Shown here in pieces: positions 1-18,056 of a stretch of DNA of 57,096 bases (its first letter is position 1; each line of letters opens with the position of its first letter). The position numbers and the translations under genes were made by a program. Origin of the DNA: Eubacteriales bacterium (GTDB lineage Bacteria; Bacillota; Clostridia; Oscillospirales; Butyricicoccaceae); NCBI GenBank assembly GCA_030524205.1, contig JAUNGZ010000018.1:1-57096 (forward strand). The letters are read 5' to 3'. Under the pieces are notes generated by a model. The model saw only the letters and a list, made by a program, of their open reading frames with translations. It was not told the DNA's origin and did no database searches.

Positions 1-935
1 CCGGTGACAAAGTCGTTGAAGCGCGTGCCCACGCCGATGATCAGGTCGCAGTCCTTGCACAGCGCGTTCGCCGCCAGACCGCCCGTGACGCCCACGCCGC
101 CGACCGAAAGCTCGAACGAGTCCGGCAGCGCCGAATGGCCCGCCTGTGTCTGCGAAACCGGGATGTTGAACGCCTTGCAGAACTCCATCACGGTCTCGCC
201 CGCCTCCGAGTAGCGCACGCCGCCGCCCGAAATCAGCATCGGCTTCTTCGCCGCCTTGATCAGCTCGACCGCCTGCTCAAGCTCATACTCGTCCGCGCAC
301 CGGCGGGAGATATGATGCACGCGCTTCTGGAAGAAGTAGTCCGGATACTCGAACGACTCGCCCTGCACATCCTGCGGCAGGGAGATGACCGCCGTGCCGC
401 AGTTGGCCGTATCGGTCAGCACGCGCATCGCGTTGACCAGCGCGCTCATCAGCTGCTCGGGCCGCGATACGCGGTCCCAGTATTTCGCAACCGGCTTGAA
501 GCAGTCCGACGCCGTGATCGACAGATCCGCCGGCGACTCGAGCTGCTGCAGCACCGGGTCCGGCTGCCGCGTTGCAAACGTGTCCGACGGGAACAGCAGC
601 AGCGGAATGTTGTTGATCGTCGCCGTCAGCGCCGCGGTCACCATGTTCGCCGCGCCCGGGCCGATCGAGGACGAGCACGCGATGATCTTCCGGCGGTTGT
701 GCTGCTTGGCGTAGCTGATCGCCGCGTGCGCCATGCCCTGCTCGTTGCGCCCCTGATAGACGCGCAGACGGCCCGGGTCCTCGTCCAGCGCCTGCCCAAG
801 GCCCACCACCATGCCGTGCCCGAAAATCGTGAACACGCCGTCCACGAACGGCTCTACCTTGCCGTCATACTCGATGTACTGCTGGTTCAGAAACTTTACC
901 ACTGCCTGCCCTACTGTCATTTTGCTCTTGCTCAT
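1..935 (-). CDS. iolD: 3D-(3,5/4)-trihydroxycyclohexane-1,2-dione hydrolase, N-terminal part (cut by window edge)
   Basis: ThDP-dependent hydrolase of the myo-inositol pathway that opens the ring of trihydroxycyclohexane-dione to give 5-deoxy-glucuronate. The 311 visible residues match the N-terminal half of IolD. The ThDP-activating glutamate is seen in [13 protein letters not shown] (Glu65), followed by [29 protein letters not shown] and SLPQDVQGE, the residues that distinguish IolD from acetolactate synthase. The ATG at 935 follows an AGGAGG at about 944-950. The gene lies 410 bases downstream of the sugar-binding protein on the same strand, so it may be the end of the same operon or have its own promoter in the gap. 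The C-terminal part and stop lie outside the window. Confidence 0.9.
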
Positions 936-1345: not shown

Positions 1346-2320
1346 TTACTGATAATCCGAAGCATTATCCTTTGTTACCCAAATGCATTCGGTGTAATTG
1401 AGCGCCTCGACGCTTTCTCCGTTCAAGAATCGGTACATCGTTTCAACCCCCAGCGCGCCCTGAAGCTTTGCGGCCTGCGAAACCGTACCGTCCATAGCGC
1501 CGGCGGCGACGGAAGCAATGCCTTCCGGTACTGCGTCAATGCCGAATACCATGATATCGTCCTGCTTGCCGGCGTCTTCTACCGCCTTCTGCGCGCCCAA
1601 CGCCATGGAGTCGTTCTGCGCAACCACCGCGTTGATTTCCGTACCGGTCTGAAGCCATGTTTCGACCTTGGTCAGCGCTTCATCGGTCGTCCAGTTGGCG
1701 GTATCTTCAAATACGATATGCACATTGGGATAATTGGCAAGCACCTTGTCGTAGCCCTCCTTGCGGATGATCTGCGCGTCGGAGCCCATGGGGCCGTACA
1801 GCACGACAATATTGCCCGCTTCACCCAGCGCCTCTACCGCTTTCTGCATTTGCAGCTCGCCGGCCTTGCTGTCATCGCCGCCGCAGTGCGACTTCGCCAG
1901 CTCCTGCTGGCTCATTTTCTGCACAACCGTCATAACCGGAACATCCGCTTCGTTTGCCGTTTTTACGGAAGGCGCGATGCCGTCAACTGAAATGGGTTCA
2001 ACCAAAATGCCGTCGTAGCCCTGCGTAATGCACTGTTCCATCTGAGACGCCTGCTTCGCTTGGTCCTGCGCACCGTCGAACACGTCTACCGTGACGCCCA
2101 ATTCTTCGCTTTTTTCCTTTGCGCCTTCGGAAACAGCCGTCGTGAACGCGTTGGTCTGATGACTCATCAGCAGCGCGATTCTATAATTCTTCGCGTCCGC
2201 GCCGCCGCTGCCCGCGCCGCTGTCACCCGTATCCGCGCCGCCGCCCGAATTATCGCTGCATGCTGCCAACGACAGGCACATTGCACCCGTCAGCAAAAGG
2301 GCCAATACTCTTTTCTTCAT
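1346..2320 (-). CDS. Sugar/cyclitol ABC transporter substrate-binding lipoprotein (RbsB-like)
   Basis: Extracytoplasmic binding protein of a CUT2 (ribose/inositol-type) importer, 324 aa. The N-terminus is a lipoprotein signal with lipobox LSLAAC, followed by a glycine-rich linker and a periplasmic-binding-protein type 1 fold (YRIALLMSH, DGILVEPIS, ALGAQKAVEDAG, VFGIDAVPEG). An in-frame ATG at 2338 overlaps the GAGGAG ribosome site, so the ATG at 2320 is preferred. It is the last gene of the importer set, 43 bases after the RbsC-like permease. It is the only binding protein for two ATPase/permease pairs in the operon. The neighbouring iolD suggests inositol or a related cyclitol as ligand; this is inferred, not read from binding residues. 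Confidence 0.88.
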   Translation of the reverse strand: MKKRVLALLLTGAMCLSLAACSDNSGGGADTGDSGAGSGGADAKNYRIALLMSHQTNAFTTAVSEGAKEKSEELGVTVDVFDGAQDQAKQASQMEQCITQGYDGILVEPISVDGIAPSVKTANEADVPVMTVVQKMSQQELAKSHCGGDDSKAGELQMQKAVEALGEAGNIVVLYGPMGSDAQIIRKEGYDKVLANYPNVHIVFEDTANWTTDEALTKVETWLQTGTEINAVVAQNDSMALGAQKAVEDAGKQDDIMVFGIDAVPEGIASVAAGAMDGTVSQAAKLQGALGVETMYRFLNGESVEALNYTECIWVTKDNASDYQ

Positions 2321-2363
2321 CTTTGTTTCTCCTCTCATAAGTAGGCATTATTTATACCAAAGC

Positions 2364-3338
2364 TCAGGCCTTTTTCCCCTTGCTTCTGATATCCATCAAC
2401 ACGGCGAAAATAATAATCAAACCCTTGATAACCGGCTGCCAGTTGGAATCGACACGCATAATGTCCAGACCGTTTGCAATTACCGCGATCATCAACGCGC
2501 CGATCACCACGCCGTGCCATTTGCCCGAACCGCCGGACATTGATACGCCGCCGATAACAGTTGCAGCGATCGCATCCATTTCATAGCTCTGCCCGGCAGT
2601 GGGCGCCCCCGTGATCGTACGTGAAGCAACCAGCAGGCCGCAGAAACCGGCAAGCAGGCCGGCGATCATATAAACTAGCACGCGCACTTTTTTCACATTG
2701 ATTCCCGATACCGAAGCCGCAACTTCATTGCCGCCGATGGCGTAAACATGGCGGCCAAATACGGTTTTTTGCAGAACAAACGCGCAGATCGCGGCGACAA
2801 TCACCAGATATACAGCCAAGATTGGTATGGAAAACGGCTTCAGCGAGGCAATCGCTTCAAAGGAACCTGTCACGCCGAACACCGGCGAACCGCCGGAAAT
2901 GATCAGGGCAAGTCCGCGGACGATCGTCATTGACCCAAGCGTTACAATAAAGGGAGGAATCGCGCCGTATGCAATACCCACGCCGTTGAGCGCGCCGATC
3001 AGCGCGCCGACTGCCAGCGCCGCGAGGATCGGAACGAGCAGCGGGAACTGCCCTGCGCCCGTCGTGCTGCCCGCTGCGGGATGAGCGAGCATGCAGGCGA
3101 TTACGCCGGTCAGGCCGACGGTCGAACCCACCGAAAGGTCAATGCCGTTTGAAATGATTACAAAGGTCATGCCCATTGCCAGAATGCCGTTGACCGCGGT
3201 CTGCTTAAGCACGCTGATCAAATTGCCGGGCTTGACGAACGCGCCGCCCGAAATAATCGCCAATATGGCGACAAGCACCAGAAAAATGATGATTAAGCCA
3301 AAATTCTTTAAAAAACTTTTCGATTTTACTGTACTCAT
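2364..3338 (-). CDS. Sugar ABC transporter permease (RbsC-like)
   Basis: Membrane subunit of the CUT2 importer, 324 aa, with about eight to ten hydrophobic segments. It carries family landmarks: GMTFVIISNGIDLSVGS near the N-terminus, the cytoplasmic coupling loop AIGGNEVAASVSGINV that contacts the ATPase, and the C-terminal GGVSMSGGSGKWHG. Its ATG overlaps the stop codon of the upstream ATPase (ATGA), which indicates translational coupling with that RbsA-like protein. This is a normal-looking subunit, unlike the second ABC pair further upstream. Confidence 0.9.
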   Translation of the reverse strand: MSTVKSKSFLKNFGLIIIFLVLVAILAIISGGAFVKPGNLISVLKQTAVNGILAMGMTFVIISNGIDLSVGSTVGLTGVIACMLAHPAAGSTTGAGQFPLLVPILAALAVGALIGALNGVGIAYGAIPPFIVTLGSMTIVRGLALIISGGSPVFGVTGSFEAIASLKPFSIPILAVYLVIVAAICAFVLQKTVFGRHVYAIGGNEVAASVSGINVKKVRVLVYMIAGLLAGFCGLLVASRTITGAPTAGQSYEMDAIAATVIGGVSMSGGSGKWHGVVIGALMIAVIANGLDIMRVDSNWQPVIKGLIIIFAVLMDIRSKGKKA

Positions 3339-4834
3339 TCTTTTCGCTCCCCAAATTGTGCCGCATATGTCATAATGCGCTCTTGTGTAAAGTCCGCGCG
3401 CTCGATTTCACCGGTCAGCCGTCCCTCGGCCAGTACTATGATCCGGTCGGACAGACCCATGACTTCCGGTATTTCGGACGAGATCACGATGACTGCTTTC
3501 CCCTGCTTGACCATTTCCCCGATCAGCAGATAGATATCCCGTTTTGCGCCAACGTCGATGCCGCGGGTCGGCTCATCGAGGATGATGATATCGGGATCGG
3601 TCAGCAGCCATTTAGCGATGACTACCTTCTGCTGGTTGCCGCCGGATAGGTTGCCGACCAGCTGCGCCGTGCCGGGCGTTTTAATAGAAAGCTCTCCGAT
3701 GTAGCGGTTGGCGATTTCGTTTTCCTTCTTCCTGTCGATCAGGCCGGAGGGAAACAGCTTTTTTAAATTGACAAGCGTTATGTTCTCCGCTACGCTGCCG
3801 ACCAAATTTAAGCCGGTGAACTTTCGATCCTCGGTAATCAGCGCGATCCTGTGCGCGATGGCGTGCCGCGGATGTGTGACGTTAACCGGTTTTCCGCCAA
3901 TCAGCACCTCGCCGCCGGATTTTTGCCGCATTCCAAAAATCGTCTCGACAAGCTCGCTCCGTCCCGCGCCGACCAAGCCGGCAATACCGAGCACCTCGCC
4001 ATGCCGCAGCGTAAAGCTGACGTTCTTGACCTGCCTTCCGTACGAAAGGTTTTTTACTTCCAGCGCAATCCCGCCGATTTCAGCTTCGGTCTTGGGGAAT
4101 ACTTCGGTGATATCGCGGCCGACCATCATGCGGATGAGCTGATCGTTGTTCATGTTGGACGCGGCGTCCGTTCCAATGAATTTGCCGTCCCGCAGCACGG
4201 TGATGGTATCGCAGATCTGAAAGATTTCGTCCATCTTGTGCGAAATGTAGATGATTGCCACGCCCTCGCTTTTCAAGCGGCGAATCTGCGTAAAAAGCGT
4301 CTCGACCTCGTGCTCGGTGATTGCGGAGGTCGGTTCATCCATCACAACGACCTTAGCGTTTACCGAAATCGCTTTAACAATCTCGATCAACTGACATTGC
4401 GCAACGCTTAAATCCCGCATATAGGCGGTCGGTGAAATGTCGATGTTCAAATTTTCCAGCAGCTCTCGCGTTTCACGAATCATCCGCTTTTTGTCGACTA
4501 AAATTCCCTGTTTTCGCTCCCGACCGACATAAATGTTCTCAAACACCTGCATGTCCAGAATAGGGTTCAGCTCCTGATGGATCATTGCCACCCCCCTGTC
4601 CATCGCCTCTCGGGGGTTCCTCGCGCGAAGCGGCTGGCCGTTCATCACGACCTCGCCCGCGTCGGCGCTGTATATTCCCATCAGTATCTTCATCAGCGTT
4701 GATTTTCCGGCTCCGTTCTCGCCCATCAATGCGTGAACTTCGCCCGCCCTAACACGAAGCGTCACATCGTCCAGTACTTTAACGCCCGGAAAACTTTTTA
4801 CAATATGGTTCATCTTCAGAATGAATTCCGACAT
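3335..4834 (-). CDS. Sugar ABC transporter ATP-binding protein (RbsA-like, tandem nucleotide-binding domains)
   Basis: Energy-coupling subunit of the importer, 499 aa, with two fused ATPase domains. The first is canonical: Walker A GENGAGKS (residues 38-45), signature LSVAQCQLIEIVKA, Walker B VVMDEPTSA and the switch histidine in YISHKMDE. The second has the usual CUT2 variant P-loop GLVGAGRSE, signature LSGGNQQKVVIAKWL and Walker B IIILDEPTRG. The ATG at 4834 has an AGGAGG eight bases upstream and is preferred over the ATG at 4852, which sits inside the ribosome-binding region. The stop overlaps the permease start. A gap of 98 bases separates it from the second permease upstream. Confidence 0.92.
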   Translation of the reverse strand: MSEFILKMNHIVKSFPGVKVLDDVTLRVRAGEVHALMGENGAGKSTLMKILMGIYSADAGEVVMNGQPLRARNPREAMDRGVAMIHQELNPILDMQVFENIYVGRERKQGILVDKKRMIRETRELLENLNIDISPTAYMRDLSVAQCQLIEIVKAISVNAKVVVMDEPTSAITEHEVETLFTQIRRLKSEGVAIIYISHKMDEIFQICDTITVLRDGKFIGTDAASNMNNDQLIRMMVGRDITEVFPKTEAEIGGIALEVKNLSYGRQVKNVSFTLRHGEVLGIAGLVGAGRSELVETIFGMRQKSGGEVLIGGKPVNVTHPRHAIAHRIALITEDRKFTGLNLVGSVAENITLVNLKKLFPSGLIDRKKENEIANRYIGELSIKTPGTAQLVGNLSGGNQQKVVIAKWLLTDPDIIILDEPTRGIDVGAKRDIYLLIGEMVKQGKAVIVISSEIPEVMGLSDRIIVLAEGRLTGEIERADFTQERIMTYAAQFGERKE

Positions 4835-4932
4835 CCTCTGCACCTCCTGCATCGGCTTGCTTTTATGGTATTGATTCTATCCTGTGAACCATTTCGCCAC
4901 AATGAGACGTTCTTAAGTTTTGGGGGACGAAA

Positions 4933-5856
4933 TTAAGATTTTGTGATTTTTGTTGATATTGCAAAGAAAAGGATGGCACCTTTTATAACATTTTGATAAT
5001 ACGGCGCGATACGGAGCACTAAAAAAGCCGCAGTCAGCAACGAAAGAAACACGGCTGAGCAGACCACCGGCAGCACGCGGCCCCGTCCGCCGGAGAAGCC
5101 GACGCCGCCAAGCGCCGCTATCGTCAGCACATCCAGAACCCAGCTGTCCCCCGCCGAAAGCGAAGCCACGCCAACCCTGCCCACGTACAAAATTGACGCT
5201 ACCGCCGTGTACATGCCGGACAAGGCGAACGCCAGACTGCACGTCTTGTGAACCGGCACGCCCGCTTTTGCCGCCGTTTCCACATCCCAGCCTCTTGCAA
5301 AGAAAAACCGTCCCCAATAGGTACCGTGCAGAATCCATGCGGTCAGCGCCGCCATCATCAGAAACAATACCGCTGGAAACGGGATATTAAACACTTTCAG
5401 CTTTGCGATCTGCTCCAAAAGCGCGGGAATGTCAAATACAGGCGTGCCGTTGGCGAGAATGCTTGCCAGTCCGCTCACGGCAACACCGACCGCAATCGTG
5501 GCAATCATCGCATTCAGCTTTTTTGCGGCGATCACATATCCGATCACCGCGCCGACAGTGGCGGCAGTCAGCAGCGTCAGCATAATTGCCGCGGGAGGCG
5601 GCAGATACAGCGACTTGGTTAAAAAAACGCATAAAACCCCATAAAGCGCGCTTTGCGCGCCGACAGCCAGATCAATATTGCCGCAAATTAAAACAAACAT
5701 CATGCCGAGCGCAAGCATTCCGGTGGTAGATGCCTGCACCAAAATGCCGGAGTACATTTCAAACCGGTCAAATCCCGGTACAAACAGCACGCCAAGCACA
5801 GCGGAAATCATAAGCAGTAGCAGCGGAATATAATTCTTCCATGCACGGTTTCTCAT
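4933..5856 (-). CDS. Second, diverged sugar ABC permease (CUT2 family)
   Basis: Membrane protein of 307 aa related to RbsC but clearly diverged from the permease at 2364-3338. The landmark GNIDLAVGAQ is present in the usual place. The coupling loop is altered (GWDVETAAKAGVPV instead of GGNEVAASVSGINV), and the C-terminal glycine motif reads GGVGFSGGRGR. The ATG at 5856 overlaps the stop of the degenerate ATPase (ATGA) and follows AAGGAGG. The pair has no binding protein of its own; it either shares the downstream one or has a non-transport role. Its partner ATPase lacks key catalytic residues. Confidence 0.85.
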   Translation of the reverse strand: MRNRAWKNYIPLLLLMISAVLGVLFVPGFDRFEMYSGILVQASTTGMLALGMMFVLICGNIDLAVGAQSALYGVLCVFLTKSLYLPPPAAIMLTLLTAATVGAVIGYVIAAKKLNAMIATIAVGVAVSGLASILANGTPVFDIPALLEQIAKLKVFNIPFPAVLFLMMAALTAWILHGTYWGRFFFARGWDVETAAKAGVPVHKTCSLAFALSGMYTAVASILYVGRVGVASLSAGDSWVLDVLTIAALGGVGFSGGRGRVLPVVCSAVFLSLLTAAFLVLRIAPYYQNVIKGAILFFAISTKITKS

Positions 5857-7175
5857 ATATCCTCCTTTAGTTCCCCATTTTTCCAAACATAAAGCCTATC
5901 GGCGCGTCCCAGCAGCTCATCCGTTGTATTCACAATATAAAACACCGTACACCCGGTTTTCAGCAAGTGGTTAGCCGCAATTTGCAGCGCAACAAAATCC
6001 GCGCGGTCGGCGCCCGGACGGTCGATCACGCAAATACGCGCACCCAGCAGCGAGAAGCGGTAGAGCAGCAAACGCAGCTGCTCCGCACGGGAAAGCTGTT
6101 TGGGACGCAACAGCAGTTGCGCGTCGGTCAGCCCGGTTTGCTCCGAGCATTCCGCACGGATCAGACGCTGCATTTTCCGGCTCAGCCGCCAGCCAAAGCC
6201 GACGCTTTTGGACGCTGCGGTCAGCAGAATATTATCGAGCACGGATATTTGATTCAGCAACGCGCCGTCAAGCGCCTCATTATCCAGCACACCCGGCGCC
6301 GGCAGGCCGGCCGCGGCGCAGCGTGAGCAAATCAAGCGCACCAGCGCATCCGCCGAGCCGTCCGCATCCCGGACGACGCACAGCTCACCCAGACAAACGG
6401 GAAGGCCCGGTAAATCAAATACTTTCTTTCCTCCGCCCGAGCGCGTGTCCCACGGGAAATTTGCGCCCGAATAGCCGTATAGATAGGTGTTCATCGCGGC
6501 TTGTTCACGTGTATTGGGGGAGAGTATTTTTACAATTCTTCCGTCCGCCATTACCACGTTTTTTTGCATCCCCTGCTGCACCGCGTCCATGCGGCGCGAA
6601 AGATACAGCACTGCGACGCCGCGGCGGCTGACCGCGCGGATCGTGTGCAGTAGTGCCGCCTGTTCCTTGACCGGCAGGCGGTCGCCCTCGCTCTCCAAAA
6701 TAACAAACTTCTTTTCGCACAACACGGCATGCACAAGCAAGATACGATGCTGAACATGAGACGGCAGCTGCGCCGGCTGCGCCTGTGCGTATCCCGTCAG
6801 ACCATACTCTTCTAAGATTTCGGCGCACAGCGCGCGCATCCGGCGTTTTTTCCATATCCAGTGCCCCTTAAGGCACACCGAAAGCAGATTTTCTGCTACC
6901 GTCAAATTGCCGATCAGCCGACTCGTGCGCGCAATGCGTCCCCCTTCGCGCCGCAGAACGCCCAGCGGCGCGCGCTTTTCCCGCAGCAGAACCATGCCCG
7001 CATCCGGCGCAATCTCTCCTGCAAGCACCTGTGCCAGCTGCGTCTTTCCGGCTCCGCTTCGGCCAATGATGCCAAGCATCTGGCCTTCGGCAAGCAGCAG
7101 GCTTACGCCGTCAAGTCTTCTGCGTCCTGCGCTCTCAGAAACCACACCTGACGCGCGAAGCAGTTCACGCTCCAT
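5853..7175 (-). CDS. Degenerate tandem ABC ATPase (RbsA-like), likely impaired in hydrolysis
   Basis: 440 aa, built like RbsA but with eroded motifs. Domain 1 keeps Walker A GRSGAGKT (residues 38-45). The signature is lost (LPSHVQHRILLVHA), the Walker B aspartate is replaced by leucine (FVILES, 157-162), and the switch histidine is arginine (YLSRRMD, 191-197). Domain 2 has no P-loop at all (the region reads DADGSADALVRL), and its Walker B glutamate is arginine (ICVIDRPG). The frame is intact and translationally coupled on both sides (11-bp overlap with the kinase, 4-bp with the permease), so it is not a decayed pseudogene. A regulatory or sensory role with the adjacent histidine kinase is inferred. 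Confidence 0.82.
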   Translation of the reverse strand: MERELLRASGVVSESAGRRRLDGVSLLLAEGQMLGIIGRSGAGKTQLAQVLAGEIAPDAGMVLLREKRAPLGVLRREGGRIARTSRLIGNLTVAENLLSVCLKGHWIWKKRRMRALCAEILEEYGLTGYAQAQPAQLPSHVQHRILLVHAVLCEKKFVILESEGDRLPVKEQAALLHTIRAVSRRGVAVLYLSRRMDAVQQGMQKNVVMADGRIVKILSPNTREQAAMNTYLYGYSGANFPWDTRSGGGKKVFDLPGLPVCLGELCVVRDADGSADALVRLICSRCAAAGLPAPGVLDNEALDGALLNQISVLDNILLTAASKSVGFGWRLSRKMQRLIRAECSEQTGLTDAQLLLRPKQLSRAEQLRLLLYRFSLLGARICVIDRPGADRADFVALQIAANHLLKTGCTVFYIVNTTDELLGRADRLYVWKNGELKEDI

Positions 7176-8172
7176 ATGTTTTCGTCTCCTCCGTCACGCG
7201 CGGAAGCGTCAGCACCACATCCGTCCCTTGCCCCAGCGTGCTGTAAACCTGCACATCATAGCAGTCGCCATACAGCAGCCGAATGCGCCGCGCCACATTG
7301 GGCAGGGCAAGCCCTCCCCGCTTGTCTGCAGGCTCCGGGATGGCTTGGCCTCTCACCCTGTTCCGCAGCATCTGCAGCGTTTCATTTTCCATGCCCGCCC
7401 CGTTATCCGAAATCGTAACGATAACCAGCTTATCCGTACCCTCTATCCGCACTGTGATTTCTCCGCCGCTGGTCTTGCCTTCCAGCCCATGCAGGATAGC
7501 ATTTTCAACGATAGGCTGCAGCGCCAGCTTTGGCAGGCGGCATTGCTCTTTATTCTCCCGCTCGGTGGGCTGGATGGATAATTGGAATCGGTTATCAAAG
7601 CGAAACTGCTGTATTTTGAAATAATCGCGTACATTCTCCAACTCCTCTGCCAGCGTCACTACATTATTGCGGTTGGATATGGAATACCGGAAAAAGGCAG
7701 AAAGAGCCTCCGTCATATCGGCGATATCCACCGCGCCCTCATGCAGCGCCTGTCCCCGGATGGAATCGAGCGTATTGTACAGAAAATGCGGGTTTATCTG
7801 ACTTTGCAGCATATCCAACTCCGCCTGCGTGCCGGCGAGCGTTTCCGTATGCCGCGCTTCCAATTCATCCGCTAGAGACAGCAGCAAGCGCGACGCCGGA
7901 TCATTCAGCTGCCGCAGCAATGCAAGCCGCGCTTTCAACGGCGCCGCATCGTCCTCCAGCGTGCGCTCCGCACGGCGGATCGGCGCAATGAAGCCCCAGA
8001 TCACCGCCGACATGCCGCCCGCCGCGCAAAGCGCAAGCAGAATTGCGGCCGATACCGGACGCAGCAATCCGAACGCGCTCAGCATGCCGACCGCGCCCAG
8101 CGCAGCGAATCCGCCCGCTGTTGACAGCATCAACTGGAAGGACCACGGACGGCTGTTGCTTTCCTGTCGCAT
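7165..8172 (-). CDS. Sensor histidine kinase of the YesM/LytS type, with almost no extracytoplasmic domain
   Basis: 335 aa. Two hydrophobic segments lie at about residues 10-37 and 40-62, separated by only a couple of residues, so there is no periplasmic sensor domain. The cytoplasmic part has a His_kinase domain with QINPHFLYN (His129 the likely phospho-acceptor) and an HATPase domain: N-box PIVENAILHG, DNGAGM and the G2-like GGLALPNV. The upstream response regulator ends 11 bases before this start. The downstream ABC ATPase start overlaps this gene by 11 bases. A kinase with two adjacent helices, coupled to an ABC gene, recalls intramembrane-sensing kinases of the BceS type, although it belongs to a different kinase family. 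Confidence 0.88.
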   Translation of the reverse strand: MRQESNSRPWSFQLMLSTAGGFAALGAVGMLSAFGLLRPVSAAILLALCAAGGMSAVIWGFIAPIRRAERTLEDDAAPLKARLALLRQLNDPASRLLLSLADELEARHTETLAGTQAELDMLQSQINPHFLYNTLDSIRGQALHEGAVDIADMTEALSAFFRYSISNRNNVVTLAEELENVRDYFKIQQFRFDNRFQLSIQPTERENKEQCRLPKLALQPIVENAILHGLEGKTSGGEITVRIEGTDKLVIVTISDNGAGMENETLQMLRNRVRGQAIPEPADKRGGLALPNVARRIRLLYGDCYDVQVYSTLGQGTDVVLTLPRVTEETKTYGA

Positions 8173-8183
8173 CGTTTTTCCTC

Positions 8184-9773
8184 TTAATTATACAGATTTT
8201 TGTATTGTGTCGGCTTAACGCCTACAATACGCGTGAACAGCTTGCTGAAATACCGCACATCCTTGTACCCCACCGCTTCCGCGATTTCGGACAGTGTTTT
8301 CCCGTCCCGCAGCAGGCTTTTTGCAGTTTCAATGCGAACCGCGGTCAAATAATCCTTAAAGTTTGTGCCCGTATCCTTTTTAAACAGCATTGACAGATAA
8401 ATCGGGTTAAGCCCGACTTCCTCGGCCACCTCGTTCAGGCTGATCTGATCCATATACCGACGCCCGACGATTTCCTTTACCATCCTCACCGGACGGTTCT
8501 CCGCGTTGCGGATTGTAGTCTTTACCAGACTTATCTGGGCGGTCAACGCTTCTTTCAGACAAAGCCCGATTTGCCCCAGCGAGGGCGAATGATACATCCG
8601 ATCCATCAGCGCTACGCGGTCCAAGTAGCGGCCGATCGCATTGTCTCCGCCGGTCTCAAAGCCGCTGAGTGCATGGTTCATTTCGCTGATCACCCATTCG
8701 GCGTAGCCAAACACCGCCTGTGCGCTCAGCTTTGGCTGCGCAGCGAAGGACGTGAAGGCCCCGTCTATCTCCTTGGACACCGCAGCGGCGTCCAATACCT
8801 GCATGGCGGACATCAGTTTTTCACAATCGTCATATGAGACCAGCCGCCGAAAATCCGTGATATCCCGCGCTGCATGCTGCCATAGATAAGTGCCGCGCCC
8901 CGGATCAAATATGTAATCATCCGCAGCGAGCGCGGCTTCCTTCAGAGGAACGTCCAGCGGCTGTTCCTCGTTCCATTGGCATACCCCCAGCGCAGCTTCC
9001 CATGCGCTGAAAATTGAAATCACCGCTTGGCAGTTTTCGCGAAGCAGGCTGTACCCGAGCATCTTTTTATCGCTGTCGACCGCGCAGATCAGGAAAAGCC
9101 GTCCCTCCACGCGCAGTACCGCAAAGGTGCGGAACCATTCCTTTCCCTGTTCGCCAAGCCACGCGACCACCTTGCCCTCCAACAGGCGCAGAGTCTCTTT
9201 GGAGTAGTCGCCGTGGCAGATAAACCGCCAGCTGAACACCGTGCAGACGCCGGAAAAATCCAGTCCATATACCTCCTGCACACATTTCATCACGGCTTGC
9301 GATACGGGCAGAACGCCGCTCTGCAAATCGGCCGCAAAGCGTTCTCTTCCCGATACCGTTTCCGCTTTTCCCGGCTTCGGCTCGTGCGCAGCGCCTTCCC
9401 GGTTGAGCTCGTCTATTGCTTTTTGAACGGCGTCGATCAGTTCCGCCCGTTTGAGCGGCTTCACGATATAATCCGTCACGCCGAATCGAATCGCCTTTTG
9501 CGCAAACGCAAACTCCCTGTATCCGCTGATGAGGATAAAACGGCAGTGCAGTCCAAGCATCCGTGTTTTCTCTAGCAACTCAACGCCGCTGCATCCGGAC
9601 ATCCGGATATCTGAAATAACGATGTCCGGCGTGCATTCCACGATCTTTTCAAACGCTTCCACACCGCTGTGCGCCATACCAATCAGTTCCAAATTTAATC
9701 CGGACCAGTCAACAAGGTACTGCACCAGCTGACAGACATGGATTTCATCATCCGCAATAAGCACTCGATACAT
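8184..9773 (-). CDS. Response regulator with AraC-type DNA-binding domain (YesN-like)
   Basis: 529 aa. N-terminal receiver domain with VLIADDE and phospho-acceptor Asp55 in VISDIRMSG, then a long middle region, then a C-terminal AraC helix-turn-helix pair (EVAEEVGLNPIYLSMLFKKDTGTNF and LSEIAEAVGYKDVRYFSKLF). The ATG at 9773 places the receiver motif at the normal distance; an upstream in-frame ATG at 9821 would add a charged, unconserved extension. A purine-rich site (GAGAAGAGGAAG) precedes it. It is the first gene of the RR-kinase-ABC-ABC-iolD run and probably activates that run or the local inositol genes. Confidence 0.9.
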   Translation of the reverse strand: MYRVLIADDEIHVCQLVQYLVDWSGLNLELIGMAHSGVEAFEKIVECTPDIVISDIRMSGCSGVELLEKTRMLGLHCRFILISGYREFAFAQKAIRFGVTDYIVKPLKRAELIDAVQKAIDELNREGAAHEPKPGKAETVSGRERFAADLQSGVLPVSQAVMKCVQEVYGLDFSGVCTVFSWRFICHGDYSKETLRLLEGKVVAWLGEQGKEWFRTFAVLRVEGRLFLICAVDSDKKMLGYSLLRENCQAVISIFSAWEAALGVCQWNEEQPLDVPLKEAALAADDYIFDPGRGTYLWQHAARDITDFRRLVSYDDCEKLMSAMQVLDAAAVSKEIDGAFTSFAAQPKLSAQAVFGYAEWVISEMNHALSGFETGGDNAIGRYLDRVALMDRMYHSPSLGQIGLCLKEALTAQISLVKTTIRNAENRPVRMVKEIVGRRYMDQISLNEVAEEVGLNPIYLSMLFKKDTGTNFKDYLTAVRIETAKSLLRDGKTLSEIAEAVGYKDVRYFSKLFTRIVGVKPTQYKNLYN

Positions 9774-10195
9774 TGTTTTCTTCCTCTTCTCCCGCAGTTT
9801 GGCATCCGTTATTTGACGCACGGCTTTTCAGCCGAAACCCTTTTTGAAAGCGCACGGTGCGGCCTTTCCCCAGCCTTACGAATGCCACATGAAATACCGC
9901 AGCCGTTTTTATAGATTCCTGCTATGCCTTTGCCGCACCACCGCGCCGGACCGTTTCACCCGGGCACACATCTGCGCCCACGGCGCAGACACATGAATCC
10001 CCTGATTCAGGCAGTACGGCGCCGAATCCCTATTTTATACAAAAATTTGTATACGCTTCTCACTTTAATATTTATTTTATATCACAGCGGGCCGAACCCT
10101 ACTTCTAACATCTTGCTTTTTAGGAACGGGCCCCCTTCTGACCGGCTCTTGCAAAAAACATCCGCAAACAGGTTGCCGCGCCGCAGCCAAACGCT
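9774..10195 (-). promoter_or_regulatory. Long non-coding upstream region of the two-component/ABC operon
   Basis: About 420 bases between the response-regulator start and the terminator at 10196. I see no supportable gene. It holds a perfect hairpin tctgcgcc-cac-ggcgcaga (9971-9989), a small palindrome cctgattcagg nearby, and the AT-rich palindrome at 10036-10053. TATAAA-like elements on the minus strand lie around that palindrome, but I cannot define a convincing -35, so the operon promoter remains unplaced. Confidence 0.4.
10036..10053. promoter_or_regulatory. AT-rich palindrome, possible operator
   Basis: TATACAAA-AA-TTTGTATA is a perfect 8+8 inverted repeat in the only AT-rich patch upstream of the response-regulator operon. 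It overlaps minus-strand TATAAA/TAAAAT sequences that could serve as a -10. A binding site for a dimeric regulator is a reasonable reading; no cognate regulator is identified. Confidence 0.4.
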
Positions 10196-10234
10196 ACAAA
10201 AGCCCCGTTCCGTTAACCGGAAAGGGGCTTTTGT
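10196..10234 (-). terminator. Second hairpin downstream of asp23
   Basis: Stem acaaaagcccc (10196-10206) with 10224-10234, plus an inner CCG/CGG pair. The A-rich and T-rich outer ends resemble a bidirectional terminator. It lies about 55 bases beyond the asp23 stop, behind the hairpin at 10250-10283, and would insulate the downstream two-component operon. Confidence 0.6.
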
Positions 10235-10249
10235 AAAAAGGACATATGA

Positions 10250-10283
10250 AAGGCGGCACGGAAAATGTTTCCCATGCCGCCTT
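10250..10283 (-). terminator. Hairpin terminator of asp23
   Basis: On the minus strand, aaggcggca pairs with tgccgcctt, extended inward by a wobble pair and GG/CC to about 15 pairs. It begins 5 bases after the asp23 stop codon. The T-run comes only after a short gap, so efficiency is uncertain. Confidence 0.65.
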
Positions 10284-10288
10284 ATGCT

Positions 10289-10693
10289 TTATTCTGCCGG
10301 GGATTGTTCTTCGGGTGCGGAGTCGGGCGCAAAGCTTACGCCGCCGACGTGGATATCCACCTCGGTCACCTTGAGCTCGGTCATCGACTCGACCGAAGCC
10401 TTGACGTTCTGCTGCACCTGCTTTGCCACCTCGCAGATGTTGTGTCCAAATAGCGCAAGAAAACCGATTTCGATTTTAACCGTTCCATCCTCGCCGATTT
10501 CAATGCGCACACCCTTCGAAAGATTTTTCTTGCTTAAAAAGCTGACGATATCGCTGGTCAAGCTCGAATACAGGCCGCTGACGCCCTCGGTTTCCGAGGC
10601 GGAAAGCGCGGCGATCGAAGCGACGACATCCTCAGAGATCCGAATGGAGCCCTGATCGCCGGTCGTCGACCAATACTCCTTGTGATCTGCCAT
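10289..10693 (-). CDS. Asp23/Gls24 family protein
   Basis: 134 aa with the Asp23 envelope-protein fold: GSIRISEDVVASIAALSA, GVRIEIGEDGTVKIEIGF and VDIHVGGVSF. In Bacillus the equivalent gene (yqhY) lies just beyond the spoIIIA cluster and acetyl-CoA carboxylase genes; here it directly follows spoIIIAH with accBC absent. The ATG at 10693 has AAGGAG about ten bases upstream; an in-frame GTG at 10702 sits too close to that site. A TATAAT on the minus strand at 10717-10722, with a weak -35, suggests a promoter separate from the sporulation operon. The biochemical role of the family is poorly defined. Confidence 0.85.
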   Translation of the reverse strand: MADHKEYWSTTGDQGSIRISEDVVASIAALSASETEGVSGLYSSLTSDIVSFLSKKNLSKGVRIEIGEDGTVKIEIGFLALFGHNICEVAKQVQQNVKASVESMTELKVTEVDIHVGGVSFAPDSAPEEQSPAE

Positions 10694-10716
10694 AGTGCTC
10701 ACTCTCCTTTACACGG

Positions 10717-10745
10717 ATTATAGCACAGTTTTGGCAAAAAGCAAA
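10717..10745 (-). promoter_or_regulatory. Possible sigma-A promoter for asp23
   Basis: Minus-strand TATAAT at 10717-10722 in the 66-base gap after spoIIIAH. The 17-bp-spaced -35 (TTTGCT, 10740-10745) is poor. Listed because asp23 homologues are expressed vegetatively while spoIIIA is sporulation-specific. Confidence 0.4.
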
Positions 10746-10759
10746 GGAAAAATGCATGT

Positions 10760-11287
10760 TTAGGCGGCTTCTACAATCTTAATTTGACCGCCCGCCATGC
10801 CGGTTTCGGAAACGGCGATATCTTTGATGACCGTCACATCGGTTGCCTGCAAGCCGCCCTCGGGCGGCGCGACAACGATGTTGACGCTGTTGTCCCCTAT
10901 CATCACCACCGCGTCCTCATAGCCTTTGGCGCGGATCATGCTTTCGATGTTCGCCTCTGTCACTGAGTTTTCGGCCAGCACGGAAATTTGCGCCACAGCG
11001 TCTTCCTTGGCCGTCTGGTCGGCCTTCTCGCTCTCGGAAACCTCCTTGAGCGTGGACACCGCTTCGTCGCGGGCCTGTTCCCTTGTCAGTCGGGAAGCCG
11101 CAAAATAATCGCTCGACGGCGGCGTTTCCGCCCCCTCCGCGCTGGTTTTTTCACCGGCCGGTTCGGTCTGTTCGGCCACCAGCAAGTCCTCCGGCGCACC
11201 GATATAGCTCCAGTTGAGATAGACTGCAACGCAAAGCAAAAGCGCAATCACGCCGTAAACCGCCCCGCGTTTTTTGATTTTTTTCAT
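10760..11287 (-). CDS. spoIIIAH: Stage III sporulation protein AH
   Basis: 175 aa. One N-terminal membrane helix (residues about 9-26) is followed by an acidic linker and a C-terminal ring-building domain (ARDEAVSTLKEVSESEKAD, YEDAVVMIGDNSVNIVV). In sporulation this mother-cell protein forms a ring that docks with forespore SpoIIQ across the two membranes. It is shorter than the Bacillus subtilis protein (about 218 aa), mostly in the linker. It is the eighth and last gene of the spoIIIA cluster, 34 bases after spoIIIAG. Confidence 0.9.
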   Translation of the reverse strand: MKKIKKRGAVYGVIALLLCVAVYLNWSYIGAPEDLLVAEQTEPAGEKTSAEGAETPPSSDYFAASRLTREQARDEAVSTLKEVSESEKADQTAKEDAVAQISVLAENSVTEANIESMIRAKGYEDAVVMIGDNSVNIVVAPPEGGLQATDVTVIKDIAVSETGMAGGQIKIVEAA

Positions 11288-11321
11288 TACTGCTCGCCCT
11301 CCTGTATTTCGTTATTACTGT

Positions 11322-11870
11322 TTATGAGTCCGCCGCCATTTTCAGAACCGTAACTTTGTCCGAGCCGATGCCGCACACCGTGCCGACCGCCCGCGTGACG
11401 GCCAGCCGCACCTCCGCATTGTCCGCGCCGTCGCACAACACCACCGCGCCGCGGAAGGTCGGCAGCAGGCTTTTGACGGTCACGGGCGCTTCCCCATAGC
11501 TGCCGTCGGAAAGCACGGTCAGGCTGCTCTCGTAGCTCTGGCCGCTGTCGCCGTTTTTTGTCTGCCGCACGTTGACCGCATAGACCGCCTCCTCCGTTTC
11601 GTCAAGCGAAAGCATGAGCGAAACGCGCCCCACGCCGTCGATCGACGCAAGCTTGCCGCTCAAATCCCGCTCGAAATCGGCAAGGCTGAAGCCCTCCGGA
11701 GCCGGCTCGGCGGACGGCGCTTTTTCTTTTTGCCTGCCGCCCGACCCGCCACTGGACGCGAGCAGCAGCACGCCCGCGAGCAGCACGATCAGCACGGCTT
11801 TGTATTTTTGCAGCAGCGGGAGCAGCTTGCCCGAAGCCGTGCCGAGCCACGCAAATGACGGTTTCTTCAT
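11322..11870 (-). CDS. spoIIIAG: Stage III sporulation protein AG
   Basis: 182 aa with a membrane helix at about residues 25-42 and a ring-building domain typical of SpoIIIAG (LSGKLASIDGVGRVSLMLSL, VKSLLPTFRGAVVLCDGADN, VRLAVTRAVGTV). In the known system it assembles into a large ring in the intermembrane space of the feeding-tube channel. The start overlaps the stop of spoIIIAF by 4 bp. Identity rests on these motifs and on the conserved gene order. Confidence 0.9.
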   Translation of the reverse strand: MKKPSFAWLGTASGKLLPLLQKYKAVLIVLLAGVLLLASSGGSGGRQKEKAPSAEPAPEGFSLADFERDLSGKLASIDGVGRVSLMLSLDETEEAVYAVNVRQTKNGDSGQSYESSLTVLSDGSYGEAPVTVKSLLPTFRGAVVLCDGADNAEVRLAVTRAVGTVCGIGSDKVTVLKMAADS

Positions 11871-12343
11871 CGCTCAATCAACTCCTGTCTGTCCTTCGGC
11901 ACGCCGCATTCGTCCATGATAAGCGTTTGCAGCTCGTCCAGCAGAGCGGCGTCCTGCTTCGCATGGTAAACCGTCACGCGGTCAATCTGTAAAACGCCCT
12001 GCCCGTCCGTTGCCATCGCAACCGTGACGGTGCAGTCGATCCCCTGCTGCGCGGCGCGTTTTTCCAGCGTGCCGGCGATGCTGTTCGCCACGGAGCTTTG
12101 TGCCGTTCGATTGTTTTGTTCCTCTATTTCCGCCGTTTGGGCGCGGGATGTATCCAGTATTCCTGTCCACGCAGGCAGCCGAAGCCGTCCGAGGGGCTGC
12201 AATAGGGCAAGCAGCATCAGCAGTCCCGCCGCCAGCTTGACGATCTCCCGCAGCGCGCCGCCGCCGACCACGCGAAGCGCCGCCGCCGACGCGATACCCG
12301 CCAGCGTGACCCGGAACAGGATCGTGCGAAACAATTCCGTCAT
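11867..12343 (-). CDS. spoIIIAF: Stage III sporulation protein AF
   Basis: 158 aa. Two N-terminal membrane segments (about 7-27 and 32-52) precede a ring-building-motif domain rich in alanine (SIAGTLEKRAAQQGIDCTV, VTVYHAKQDAALLDELQTL). The ATG at 12343 overlaps the stop of spoIIIAE (ATGA); the open frame extends further upstream but only within spoIIIAE. It is somewhat shorter than the Bacillus protein (about 206 aa). Confidence 0.88.
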   Translation of the reverse strand: MTELFRTILFRVTLAGIASAAALRVVGGGALREIVKLAAGLLMLLALLQPLGRLRLPAWTGILDTSRAQTAEIEEQNNRTAQSSVANSIAGTLEKRAAQQGIDCTVTVAMATDGQGVLQIDRVTVYHAKQDAALLDELQTLIMDECGVPKDRQELIER

Positions 12344-13440
12344 ATCGGCTTCACCATCGCTACCACATAAACCAGCTCCAAATACAAAATGACGCAGCAG
12401 GTGCTCAGCATGCCGAGCAAAAGGCCGAAGCCCGTGCCCATGCCGTTTAATAATTGACGCAGGCTGCCCGAGCAGAGCGGCGACAGCACTGCCGCGCCCG
12501 CCCGATAGCACAGGTAGCTCGCGCCAGCCCGCAAAAACGGCACAAGGCAGATCGCCGTGACGCACAGCATGCCGAATACGCCGATCGAGCTTTTAAGCAG
12601 CGCCGCGCCCGAGAGCATGGTCTCCGTCGCGTCCGAAATCACGCCGCCGACGACGGGCACCGCGCCCGAAACCGCGAATTTTGCGGTTTTCAGCGTCATG
12701 CGGTCGACATTGCCCGAAATGCCGCCCGCAATCGTTAAGTAAGCGGTAAACAGCGTCAAAATCAGCTTGAGAGCTCCCGAGGTCAGGCTTTTGATTCCGT
12801 CCGCGATGCCGTGCAGCATCTCCCCGCCGGTTGCCGCATCGACGACGATAATCGCCAAATAGGCGCATGCGGCGGGCACCAGCAGCGTATTGATCAAGCG
12901 GATGACCAGATCGAACACCACCATGGCCGCCACCTGCAAAACCGTTGCGGTCGCAGCGCTGCCGCCGACGGAAAGCACCGTAGCCAGCACCGGCTGCAGC
13001 GTCGCGGAAAACAAGCTGATCTGCTCGAGCGTGTCGCGGCACAGCGCGAGCACGCCGGTGAAGTCCCGCAGCAGAACGCCAGCGCAGCCCAGCGCACCCG
13101 CCATGTCGATCCAGATATTGCTTTCTCCTCCGGCAGCGGCGGAAAAACCGCGCGCCGCCGCCGTCAAAATGATCACTGCCGCGACGCAGACCAAGCTGTG
13201 CAAAGCGCTTTGCAGCGCCGTACGGCCGTCCGACGCGGCATTTTCCAGCAGCCGTCCCATGGACGCGGCCAAATCATCTGCCGTTTCGGGCCGTATGCCG
13301 TCCAAATAAGCGCGCTGTTCATCCGGCATGGCGTCGGTCAGCGCGTCTCCGCCCACGTTCTGGACGTCCTCCTCGGTAACAGCCGCCGCAGGTATGACGC
13401 ACAGCGCCGCCAGCAGCAGGGCGATAACCAGCCTTTTCAT
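12340..13440 (-). CDS. spoIIIAE: Stage III sporulation protein AE
   Basis: 366 aa polytopic membrane protein with a cleavable-looking signal (KRLVIALLLAALCVIPAAA) and several long hydrophobic segments. The conserved core reads LFTAYLTIAGGISGNVDRM, AKFAVSGAVPVVGG and SDATETMLSGA. I chose the ATG at 13440 because it gives a signal peptide like that of the Bacillus protein and has a GGGA-type site upstream. The ATG at 13458, which overlaps the spoIIIAD stop, is an alternative and would add six residues. It is a predicted membrane component of the SpoIIIA-SpoIIQ channel. Confidence 0.9.
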   Translation of the reverse strand: MKRLVIALLLAALCVIPAAAVTEEDVQNVGGDALTDAMPDEQRAYLDGIRPETADDLAASMGRLLENAASDGRTALQSALHSLVCVAAVIILTAAARGFSAAAGGESNIWIDMAGALGCAGVLLRDFTGVLALCRDTLEQISLFSATLQPVLATVLSVGGSAATATVLQVAAMVVFDLVIRLINTLLVPAACAYLAIIVVDAATGGEMLHGIADGIKSLTSGALKLILTLFTAYLTIAGGISGNVDRMTLKTAKFAVSGAVPVVGGVISDATETMLSGAALLKSSIGVFGMLCVTAICLVPFLRAGASYLCYRAGAAVLSPLCSGSLRQLLNGMGTGFGLLLGMLSTCCVILYLELVYVVAMVKPI

Positions 13441-13454
13441 ACTTCCGTTCCCTT

Positions 13455-13844
13455 TCATATCGTCCAGTCCGCAACCAGCCCCAGCACCTGCTCGAGCAGC
13501 GGCAGGCACATGGACAGCGCCAGCGCCGCGCCCGCAATTTCCAGCTTTGCGGCGAGCGCCGACTGGCCCGCATCCTTGCAAAGCGCGCTCATAATGCGCA
13601 CCACCACCGCCACGCCGACGGTTTTCGCAACCGGCAGGTACAGGCTGTCCGTAATGCCGCCCTGTTCCAGCATGGCGCCGATCCGCTGCGCGGTGCCGCC
13701 GAACTGTCCGAAGGCCTGCATCAGGATCAGGATTCCGGTCATCAGCGTCAGCAGGAACGCGATGACGGGAGCGTCCTTTTTAAGCGTCAGCGCGAGCACC
13801 AGCGCGAGCAGCGCAAGGCCGCAGGCCGCCGTCAGTCCGCTCAA
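13455..13844 (-). CDS. spoIIIAD: Stage III sporulation protein AD
   Basis: 129 aa, almost entirely hydrophobic with four likely membrane helices; VAKTVGVAVVVRIMSALCKDAG is partly conserved in SpoIIIAD. The only start consistent with the frame is a TTG at 13844 that overlaps the spoIIIAC stop (TTGA), implying translational coupling, since there is no good ribosome site. Identification is by position between AC and AE plus the hydrophobic pattern. Confidence 0.88.
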   Translation of the reverse strand: MSGLTAACGLALLALVLALTLKKDAPVIAFLLTLMTGILILMQAFGQFGGTAQRIGAMLEQGGITDSLYLPVAKTVGVAVVVRIMSALCKDAGQSALAAKLEIAGAALALSMCLPLLEQVLGLVADWTI

Positions 13845-14035
13845 AACCCGAACACGCTCTTCATCATCGAGAAAAGCTGGCTGATCTCCTGCACGATCAG
13901 CATCAGCACGACGACAAGACCGGCCAGCGTCGTCATCAGCGCCTGTTCCTCCCGCCCCGACCGGATCAGCAGTTGGTTGAACACCGCAACCAGAATGCCG
14001 ACGGCCGCGATCCGGAAAATCAGATCCACATCCAT
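13841..14035 (-). CDS. spoIIIAC: Stage III sporulation protein AC
   Basis: 64 aa, close to the usual 68, with two membrane helices (about 8-23 and 34-48) and the typical sequence FNQLLIRSGREEQALMTTLAG. The ATG at 14035 has a GGAGGA six bases upstream. The stop overlaps the spoIIIAD start. It is a small membrane component of the mother-cell side of the channel. Confidence 0.92.
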   Translation of the reverse strand: MDVDLIFRIAAVGILVAVFNQLLIRSGREEQALMTTLAGLVVVLMLIVQEISQLFSMMKSVFGF

Positions 14036-14048
14036 AATTTCCTCCGCT

Positions 14049-14567
14049 TCAAATCAGCACCAGAATGACCAATATCCCGAGCGCGATACCGCAGGTGCGA
14101 TATAAGTTCCCCTTATTCTGCAATTCCCCCGCCGCCGCGTCGCGAGAGGCGCTCAGGCGGCGCGCGACCTGCCGCAGCCCCGCGGTTTGCTCGGCCGCGT
14201 CATAGCGGCCCAAGTAGTTGGCGGCCTCGCACAGGATATCGCATTCCGCCGTCCCAAGGCCGATTTCCTCGCGCTTGTCCCTGAGATTTTTTCGCCACAG
14301 ATAGCCGAGCGACAGCCCCGCCGCTTCCGTCAAACGGCGCTTCAGGCTGCAAAACACCTCCCGGATCACCGCATTTTCATTCTCCGACAGCTGCTCGATC
14401 AATTCGGGCAGCGGCGCGCGGCGGCAGGAAATTTCGCTTTCCAGCAGCGACAGCGCGAGCAGCATAGCGTCCGCCGCCAGCACGCGGCGCCGCAGATTCT
14501 GCCGTGCGGACAGTCCAAGCGCCGCGCACGCGCCGAAAATCATCACCGCGCCGATCAGTTTCAGCAT
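14049..14567 (-). CDS. spoIIIAB: Stage III sporulation protein AB
   Basis: 172 aa, matching the usual 171. It has an N-terminal membrane helix, a helical middle (LLALSLLESEISCRRAPLPE, FCSLKRRLTEAAGLSLGYLW) and a C-terminal hydrophobic tail. It resembles type II secretion F-type inner-membrane proteins and is thought to partner the SpoIIIAA ATPase. The start overlaps the end of spoIIIAA by 7 bp and follows a GGAGG site. Confidence 0.9.
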   Translation of the reverse strand: MLKLIGAVMIFGACAALGLSARQNLRRRVLAADAMLLALSLLESEISCRRAPLPELIEQLSENENAVIREVFCSLKRRLTEAAGLSLGYLWRKNLRDKREEIGLGTAECDILCEAANYLGRYDAAEQTAGLRQVARRLSASRDAAAGELQNKGNLYRTCGIALGILVILVLI

Positions 14568-15466: not shown

Positions 15467-15476
15467 CACCTGTCCT

Positions 15477-15507
15477 ACTCTATGCGGCGGCCTGTCCCGG
15501 ATATGAC
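15477..15507 (-). promoter_or_regulatory. Candidate sigma-E promoter for spoIIIA
   Basis: Minus-strand GTCATATC (15500-15507), a 15-base spacer and CATAGAGT (15477-15484) resemble sigma-E -35 and -10 elements. This fits mother-cell expression of spoIIIA. The predicted transcription start would be only about 4-10 bases from the start codon, so either the leader is extremely short or the match is coincidental. Confidence 0.4.
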
Positions 15508-15534
15508 TGAAACAGAAACGTAACAAAAGAAGCA

Positions 15535-15563
15535 TTGACAAATCCGTCAAACGCTCTTATAAT
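15535..15563 (+). promoter_or_regulatory. Sigma-A promoter of the aromatic amino acid operon
   Basis: Consensus TTGACA at 15535-15540 and TATAAT at 15558-15563 with a 17-bp spacer. Transcription would start near 15570, immediately before the T-box leader. Confidence 0.92.
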
Positions 15564-15569
15564 AATCAC

Positions 15570-15853: not shown

Positions 15854-15918
15854 ATGCTTTTTTCTCCGCCGGACAAACGCAAACATCCACATTTTCATCA
15901 TCAAAGGAGAGAAACACA

Positions 15919-16935: not shown

Positions 16936-17000
16936 GTTCGATTGCAATACGCGCTGTCGCGCGAAAAAACCGGATATACACAGCAAAAGGAGTGTTGTCA

Positions 17001-18044: not shown

Positions 18045-18056
18045 GGAGGGGCGTTC

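Follow-up and report, generated by a model that had tools for sequence, protein, structure and literature searches.

A catalytically degenerate RbsA paralogue accompanies histidine kinases without an input domain and may serve as their sensor

We analysed an operon at one end of a 57,096-nucleotide contig (JAUNGZ010000018.1, assembly GCA_030524205.1; this whole stretch is called the window) from a Eubacteriales bacterium of the Butyricicoccaceae. The operon encodes a histidine kinase without an input domain and, overlapping its gene, a diverged paralogue of RbsA, the ATPase of sugar importers, with broken catalytic motifs. We refer to this ATP-binding cassette (ABC) protein as pseudo-RbsA. Of the 32 loci in a high-scoring group of kinase relatives (28 genomes, six families), 31 have such a gene immediately downstream of the kinase. 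The linkage of the two genes, the missing catalytic motifs, the purifying selection on pseudo-RbsA and the history that it shares with the kinase are observed. We consider it fairly probable that these genes form three-part signalling units (an AraC-type regulator, an input-less kinase and a dead RbsA paralogue) in which pseudo-RbsA, seated on an RbsC-type permease, switches the kinase. A group of sensor-less LytS/YesM-class kinases gains a defined partner. If the proposal is true, a dead transporter motor would be a new type of two-component receptor, one that is easily missed by annotation, and it would give a regulatory handle on the use of inositol and sugars in the bacteria that carry the unit. 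The findings suggest that in several bacterial families a piece of a transporter was taken over as a sensor of sugars.

The operon lies on the minus strand and reads, from position 9773 down:

8184..9773, minus strand: response regulator of 529 amino acids, with a receiver domain and an AraC-type helix-turn-helix (YesN class); Pfam Response_reg 3e-19, HTH_18 2.9e-21; the ATG at 9773 is its likely start
7165..8172, minus strand: histidine kinase of 335 amino acids, without an input domain; PF06580 2.1e-28, HATPase_c
5853..7175, minus strand: pseudo-RbsA, an RbsA-like fused double ATPase of 440 amino acids; from motif comparison and alignment with RbsA
4933..5856, minus strand: RbsC-like extra permease of 317 amino acids (a TTG start at 5886 is possible); BPD_transp_2 4.3e-29
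4921..4942, minus strand: 22-base sequence spanning the stop codon of the extra permease; 21 of 22 bases are the same in locus L019 (see below)
3335..4834, minus strand: RbsA, canonical CUT2 ATPase; Pfam, motifs intact
2364..3338, minus strand: RbsC, canonical permease; Pfam
1346..2338, minus strand: RbsB, sugar/cyclitol binding protein with a lipoprotein-like start; Peripla_BP_4 8.3e-63
3..935, minus strand: iolD, 5' part only, cut by the contig end; TIGR04377 8.5e-156

The original prediction, made from the sequence and its open reading frames, had described a YesN-type regulator ahead of the kinase, overlapping frames for kinase, ATPase and permease, and a canonical RbsABC importer with the only binding protein behind them. 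Its coordinates were all correct, and the open reading frames and Pfam matches agree with this layout; the window type has no extra binding protein. The kinase and ATPase frames share 11 bases, and the ATPase and permease frames overlap by 34 bases if the permease starts at TTG 5886 or by 4 bases from ATG 5856, the likelier start. The permease is diverged, as had been claimed: it is about 32% identical to the RbsC of the same operon, with BPD_transp_2 spanning residues 45-309 of 317 and no large insert relative to RbsC.

Kinases without an input domain and the gene beside them

A hydropathy scan places the membrane helices of the window kinase at residues 19-37 and 40-58, so the predicted pair of helices with almost no loop is real: the loop is 2 residues long. 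The phospho-acceptor box follows after about 60 residues, and this, together with the tiny loop, leaves little room for a sensor domain. In all 14 sensor-less kinases that we scanned, Pfam finds solely kinase domains. Where two helices are called in kinases of the group, the loop is at most 11 residues (setting aside L083, which has a gap of Ns in its frame). The kinases of four loci (L081, L082, L084, and L085; about 272 amino acids) have no membrane helix called, and these can only receive their signal from a partner.

The pseudo-RbsA of the window is too diverged to recover its own family when used as a query. Counting the window's own genome, it matched only two of the 87 family genomes and two of the 394 order genomes; within the family, the only close copy besides the window's own is in genome G051. 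A two-row pseudo-RbsA profile matched 1 of 391 class genomes, again its own. Nine other ABC paralogues in the window's genome (23-29% identity) proved to be ordinary and were dropped. The pseudo-RbsA family emerged only once the kinase served as the query. Relatives of the kinase turned up in 20 of these family genomes at E up to 1e-50 and in 16 of the order genomes at E up to 1e-60. We fetched 14 neighbourhoods in this way, and every one has a strongly diverged RbsA-like gene, directly downstream of the kinase in 13 and before the regulator in L077. L077, the exception in the group as a whole, has a less degenerate RbsA-like gene.

To lessen the bias of similarity searches, we collected all 51 PF06580 matches of eight genomes and inspected the genes around each. 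Eleven of these kinases (L083 included) have no input domain, and all 11 adjoin a pseudo-RbsA. The other 40 have loops of at least 136 residues or several helices, and none has a pseudo-RbsA in the flanks that we fetched, a few of them cut short by the end of a contig. In nine stretches around these other kinases there are ABC pieces, with motifs intact in the parts covered. Under free shuffling the chance of this split is 2e-11, a figure that treats as independent events kinases that are in fact related. L083 had looked like a long kinase that breaks the rule, but its frame of 682 amino acids is a regulator and a kinase fused through an assembly gap of Ns; it was counted as sensor-less as judged through that gap.

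A reverse census of the same eight genomes, with a pseudo-RbsA profile, gave a similar picture. The top ten matches (453-581 bits) are all kinase neighbours, seven of which had been in the profile, and the next match scores 293 bits. The eleventh kinase partner, a decayed copy in genome G027, scored 148 bits. Among the 30 of 82 listed matches with loci, the non-partners keep the P-loop of the first nucleotide-binding domain (NBD1), and those of them read at full length keep DEPT there.

We also built a profile from 14 sensor-less kinases only, with no ATPase sequence in it, and ran it on 398 genomes of the phylum. It found five new loci in three further families, with scores of 365-396 bits (the next kinase scores 272). 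All five read regulator, kinase, pseudo-RbsA, RbsA, RbsC, RbsB. For the 23 lower-scoring kinases with flanking sequence among the matches listed (L133-L155), no RbsA-like gene was found within about 1.5 kb on each side.

According to the original prediction, the ATPase and the extra permease are a degenerate pair that forms the sensory subunit of the kinase. We ran the refutation test that went with it, a search for the pair beside the kinase in relatives. The ATPase half stands, with the linkage given above. The permease half does not: out of 21 loci read at length, only three (the window, L019, and L079) have an RbsC-like gene after pseudo-RbsA, with L076 cut by the contig end right at this position. 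We therefore rejected the extra permease as a constant part and place it outside the conserved unit.

Motifs, descent and selection of pseudo-RbsA

The window's pseudo-RbsA aligns over its full length with the window's own RbsA, at 26% identity. In NBD1, the Walker B motif VVVMDEPT of RbsA corresponds to FVILESEG in pseudo-RbsA, and the H-switch YISHK corresponds to YLSRR. In NBD2, the P-loop is gone and Walker B changes from IIILDEPT to ICVIDRP. The P-loop of NBD1 is intact (GRSGAGKT), so the claim of broken catalytic motifs needs this one correction, and ATP may still bind there. Across Walker A, the signature, the Walker B glutamate, and the H-switch, the NBD1 P-loop is all that the window's pseudo-RbsA keeps, whereas the canonical RbsA of the operon keeps everything.

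All 31 copies downstream of group kinases have lost catalytic motifs. We compared 16 pseudo-RbsA proteins in detail, a set that omits L077 (the least degenerate), L076 and L078 (truncated), and near copies. None of the 16 has a histidine at the H-switch position or the Walker B glutamate of NBD2. The NBD1 Walker B glutamate is kept in two, and the P-loop lysine in seven, including the window's. Of the columns that are near-invariant in canonical RbsA, pseudo-RbsA keeps the catalytic ones at a rate of 0.22 and the others at 0.34. The best-kept stretch of 10 residues is the segment just after the Q-loop of NBD1 (0.78 similar; overall 0.42). In importer structures, the segment after the Q-loop adjoins the coupling helix of the permease, as in the contact made by MalK. 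For MalFGK2, passages of PMC8134467 trace a signal path from the helical domain through the Q-loop to the coupling helices. At the N-terminus, Glu4 is present in 16 of 16 copies and Arg7 in 14, where canonical RbsA mostly has other residues; this segment may be where pseudo-RbsA touches the kinase. At E 0.001, 2 of the 10 pseudo-RbsA proteins that we scanned have no match to the Pfam ABC model. The remaining ones would probably be annotated as sugar transporter ATPases.

In a tree of the ATPases, a single branch with a Shimodaira-Hasegawa-like approximate likelihood ratio test (SH-aLRT) value of 100 splits pseudo-RbsA from canonical RbsA. The L077 gene is nearest to canonical RbsA, and the long branches make inner placements unsure. 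The sensor-less kinases form one group as well (SH-aLRT 99, in a tree of the catalytic half alone). L073 and L158 were excluded from both trees. The ratio of nonsynonymous to synonymous substitution rates (dN/dS) of pseudo-RbsA is 0.04-0.17 in the four of six pairs for which it could be computed; it is near that of the regulator in two divergent pairs and above that of RbsA in three of the four. Thus, the dead ATPase is under purifying selection. On these values, the open frames, and the breadth of six families, we rejected the reading of the gene as a pseudogene. Finally, in a mirror-tree comparison of 11 loci, the distances of kinase and pseudo-RbsA correlate with r 0.92. (This comparison left out L073, L158, L084, and L085, which are near copies or of one clade, and loci lacking a gene.)

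How pseudo-RbsA might signal, and the alternatives

In the mechanism that we favour, pseudo-RbsA would dock on an RbsC-type permease, its own in the window and the importer's RbsC in most relatives, and the resulting complex would not pump. Loaded RbsB engaging the permease, or a change in the state of the transporter, would reshape pseudo-RbsA, which would then switch the kinase by contact with its membrane hairpin or its cytoplasmic stalk. The kinase would phosphorylate the regulator, which would raise expression of RbsABC and, in the window, probably of iolD. The dead motor would stand in for the sensor domain that ordinary LytS/YesM kinases have outside the cell. A role for the degenerate ABC part as the sensory partner of the input-less kinase is strongly supported by the linkage, and the conserved partner is the pseudo-ATPase alone, which would most likely dock on an RbsC-type permease. 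We put at about even the chance that these units are a receptor class in which a non-pumping ABC importer is the sensor: the dead RbsA on its permease would report engagement of the binding protein or the state of transport, and L079, described below, would be a pure receptor.

Several observations weigh against this proposal. Two short PF06580-type kinases outside the group have no pseudo-RbsA: L161 (G1133:C271, 2546-3535; 329 amino acids, one helix) and L163 (G1083:C12, 5183-6127; 314 amino acids, no helix called). These two lower-scoring kinases show that lack of a sensor does not by itself demand a pseudo-RbsA, and they rule out a broader rule, that every short kinase has a partner. (L162, probably a split frame, and L164, truncated at the start of its contig, are counted on neither side.) Only three loci have a dedicated permease, which makes the evidence for docking on a permease indirect. 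The RbsA-like gene of L077 keeps intact NBD1 motifs. The type found at L072 and L156-L160 has lost Walker B and has a histidine one place past the H-switch (YICNH), and loss of the H-switch is less certain in this type. The NBD2 counterpart of the best-kept segment is ordinary (0.43 similar), with its asparagine in 16 of 16 copies. The distances of pseudo-RbsA also follow those of canonical RbsA (r 0.865), because the genes travel together; the partial correlation with pseudo-RbsA is 0.73 for the kinase given RbsA and 0.47 for RbsA given the kinase. An AlphaFold model of pseudo-RbsA, with RbsA as the sole second row, reached a predicted local distance difference test score of 42.9, which is too poor, and was unused.

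An unlikely alternative is that pseudo-RbsA, as a soluble protein of the cytoplasm, senses a metabolite or nucleotide and contacts the kinase directly, with no permease in the sensing. No extra permease is seen in 18 of the 21 loci read at length (counting L076, with its contig end), four kinases have no membrane helix called, and the lysine of the P-loop survives in some copies, the window's among them. However, the best-kept segment is the one that faces the permease in importers; the extra gene, where there is one, encodes an RbsC-like permease; and RbsABC or pieces of it adjoin the unit in 19 of the 21 loci (the other two are L079, with no RbsA in 20 kb, and L076, cut off by its contig end).

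It is common for a pseudo-enzyme subunit to damp an active partner, and pseudo-RbsA is a diverged copy of a motor beside a transporter. Transport itself might be what it regulates, for instance as a competitor of RbsA for RbsC, and it would then only share an operon with the two-component genes. We give this little credence, since pseudo-RbsA follows the kinase and not the importer. It is downstream of the kinase in all group loci but one, even where RbsABC runs in the opposite direction (L075, L080, and L083) or no RbsA is near (L079), and a close importer ortholog in genome G050 does without it. This explanation would also leave the sensor-less kinase without a source of signal. Least credible by far is that the kinase senses alone in the membrane while the ABC genes decay as remnants of a transporter duplication. 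In its favour, short-loop kinases are known, L161 and L163 manage without a partner, pseudo-RbsA has lost catalytic motifs, and at L078 a truncated copy stands next to a broken piece of RbsA. The low dN/dS, the open frames in six families, the single pseudo-RbsA group with its invariant Glu4, and the kinases without a called helix all speak against it.

Several known systems resemble parts of the unit that we propose. In Bce modules, as described in parts of PMC3023708 and PMC6978683, a short-loop two-helix kinase is signalled by an adjacent ABC transporter, whose extracytoplasmic loop has 197-213 residues (PMC3023708). BceRS-BceAB and the window are alike in having a two-helix kinase with a very short loop (under about 20 residues) and ABC parts encoded beside it. 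They differ in that the kinases here are of the PF06580 type (some relatives having no helix called), the regulator is AraC-type, and a dead sugar-importer ATPase with no large loop stands in place of an active transporter with ten helices and a loop of about 200 residues. The BceS-type kinase of the original prediction is therefore right in shape only: the class is His_kinase (LytS/YesM), and the permease is RbsC-like without the large loop of Bce transporters.

The XylFII-LytS-YesN and CuaDSR systems also combine a PF06580 kinase of the LytS/YesM class, an AraC-type regulator, and a third protein that delivers the ligand signal, and they control a sugar ABC importer encoded nearby. CuaS has 627 amino acids with a large extracytosolic section, and the binding protein docks on its extracellular domain (parts of PMC10384115); section 9 of PMC3656788 covers related loci. 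Here, that domain is absent and the third protein is a pseudo-ATPase predicted to be cytoplasmic. PhoR, which according to parts of PMC6978683 has no canonical periplasmic sensor domain, reads PstSCAB through PhoU. It is similarly tied to the state of an ABC importer, but by PhoU and the PstB of a working transporter instead of an extra, dead copy of the ATPase. There is no PhoU-like gene among the seven operon genes that were scanned with Pfam. In UhpC-UhpB, a transporter homologue, the major facilitator superfamily protein UhpC, is the receptor of the kinase. That system likewise uses a transporter-derived receptor instead of a pump, but here the receptor would be the ATPase of an ABC system, which has a permease of its own in some loci and none in others. 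As for RbsABC of the CUT2 family, pseudo-RbsA and the extra permease are homologous to RbsA and RbsC; unlike them, pseudo-RbsA has lost its catalytic motifs, and an extra binding protein is absent from the window type and present once, in L079.

We found no description of a kinase paired with a dead RbsA in the titles and abstract openings of open-licence papers in PubMed Central, a search that subscription papers and preprints fall outside. The pairing is likely to be new.

Locus architectures, the importer and its substrate

Besides the order seen in the window, the loci have these architectures:

L072, L073, L156-L160, and L074 (whose contig begins at the kinase): regulator, kinase, pseudo-RbsA, RbsABC, with no extra permease
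L075, L080: unit divergent from RbsABC
L083: unit convergent with RbsABC
L081, L082, L084, L085: RbsABC, regulator, kinase of about 272 amino acids (no helix called), pseudo-RbsA
L079 (G051:C1:243001-263000), 7426-13745: regulator, binding protein (412 amino acids), kinase, pseudo-RbsA, permease

No working RbsA was found within 20 kb of L079, which is possibly a complete importer rebuilt as a receptor. In L077 (G030:C34, 520-4739), the RbsA-like gene ahead of the regulator and sensor-less kinase has altered NBD2 motifs beside the intact NBD1, and it is perhaps an intermediate between motor and pseudo-motor. At L078 (G027:C21, 6208-10699), pseudo-RbsA is truncated and the adjacent RbsA is a fragment with stops; this unit seems to be decaying. 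The window's own genome has a second unit, L081 (G000:C40:60001-79000, 5588-13062), which reads RbsA, RbsC, RbsB, regulator, kinase (272 amino acids), pseudo-RbsA.

The seven-gene order of the window recurs whole in G051, a genome of another genus (locus L019), and this repetition exceeds chance. Between the two loci, the importer genes are 82% (RbsA), 76% (RbsC), and 68% (RbsB) identical, while the sensory genes are 53% (regulator), 55% (kinase), 41% (pseudo-RbsA), and 50% (extra permease) identical. The halves of the operon differ in rate, and the sensory genes behave as one unit and the importer as another.

Orthologous RbsABC genes are found close to iol genes in three genomes (the window's own, G050, and G055) and not in G051; two further importer copies (L043 and L044) are on contigs too short to judge. 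We read 20 kb around the G050 ortholog. GntR and AraC regulators, iolD, and a Gfo/Idh-type dehydrogenase are near it, and no kinase, pseudo-RbsA, or extra permease was found in the stretch. The extra genes are thus dispensable for the importer and behave like regulators. In G055, one importer copy is near iolB and iolD, and the stretch ahead of its RbsA is cut by the contig end. Among proteins of solved structure, the best matches to RbsB bind sugars, and two of them are named as CUT2 family; 4yo7 is reported to have been solved with myo-inositol. From the iol neighbours, inositol is a plausible substrate of the importer and ligand of the system, and the window's iolD is the likely catabolic target of the module. 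The iolD match covers positions 1-307 of the 616 in the TIGR04377 model, and the cut-off gene falls below the full-length cut-off. The same genome also has two complete iolD genes (G000:C4:626-2566 and G000:C9:50466-52304), and given these, the copy in the window may serve another cyclitol.

The 22-base sequence upstream of rbsA is a candidate site for the regulator, as yet unproven. It occurs once in the window. Copies of its 17-base core without mismatches were found solely in the window and the G051 ortholog, among four genomes searched, and G050 has one two-mismatch match elsewhere. The bases that follow it differ between the window and G051. Promoter-like sites show no excess over shuffled sequences, and terminator-like sites are fewer than in shuffles. 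In L019, at about 7890-7925, a GC-rich hairpin followed by T, terminator-like by eye, lies between the extra permease and rbsA; none was seen at this place in the window. Given this hairpin, the sensory and transport genes may be separate units in G051.

The neighbours upstream of the operon are ordinary: positions 10289-20280 of the window hold, on the minus strand, an Asp23-family gene and spoIIIA sporulation genes (AH, AE, AB, and AA) and, on the plus strand, genes for 3-deoxy-D-arabino-heptulosonate 7-phosphate (DAHP) synthase, 3-dehydroquinate synthase, chorismate synthase, and chorismate mutase-prephenate dehydratase.

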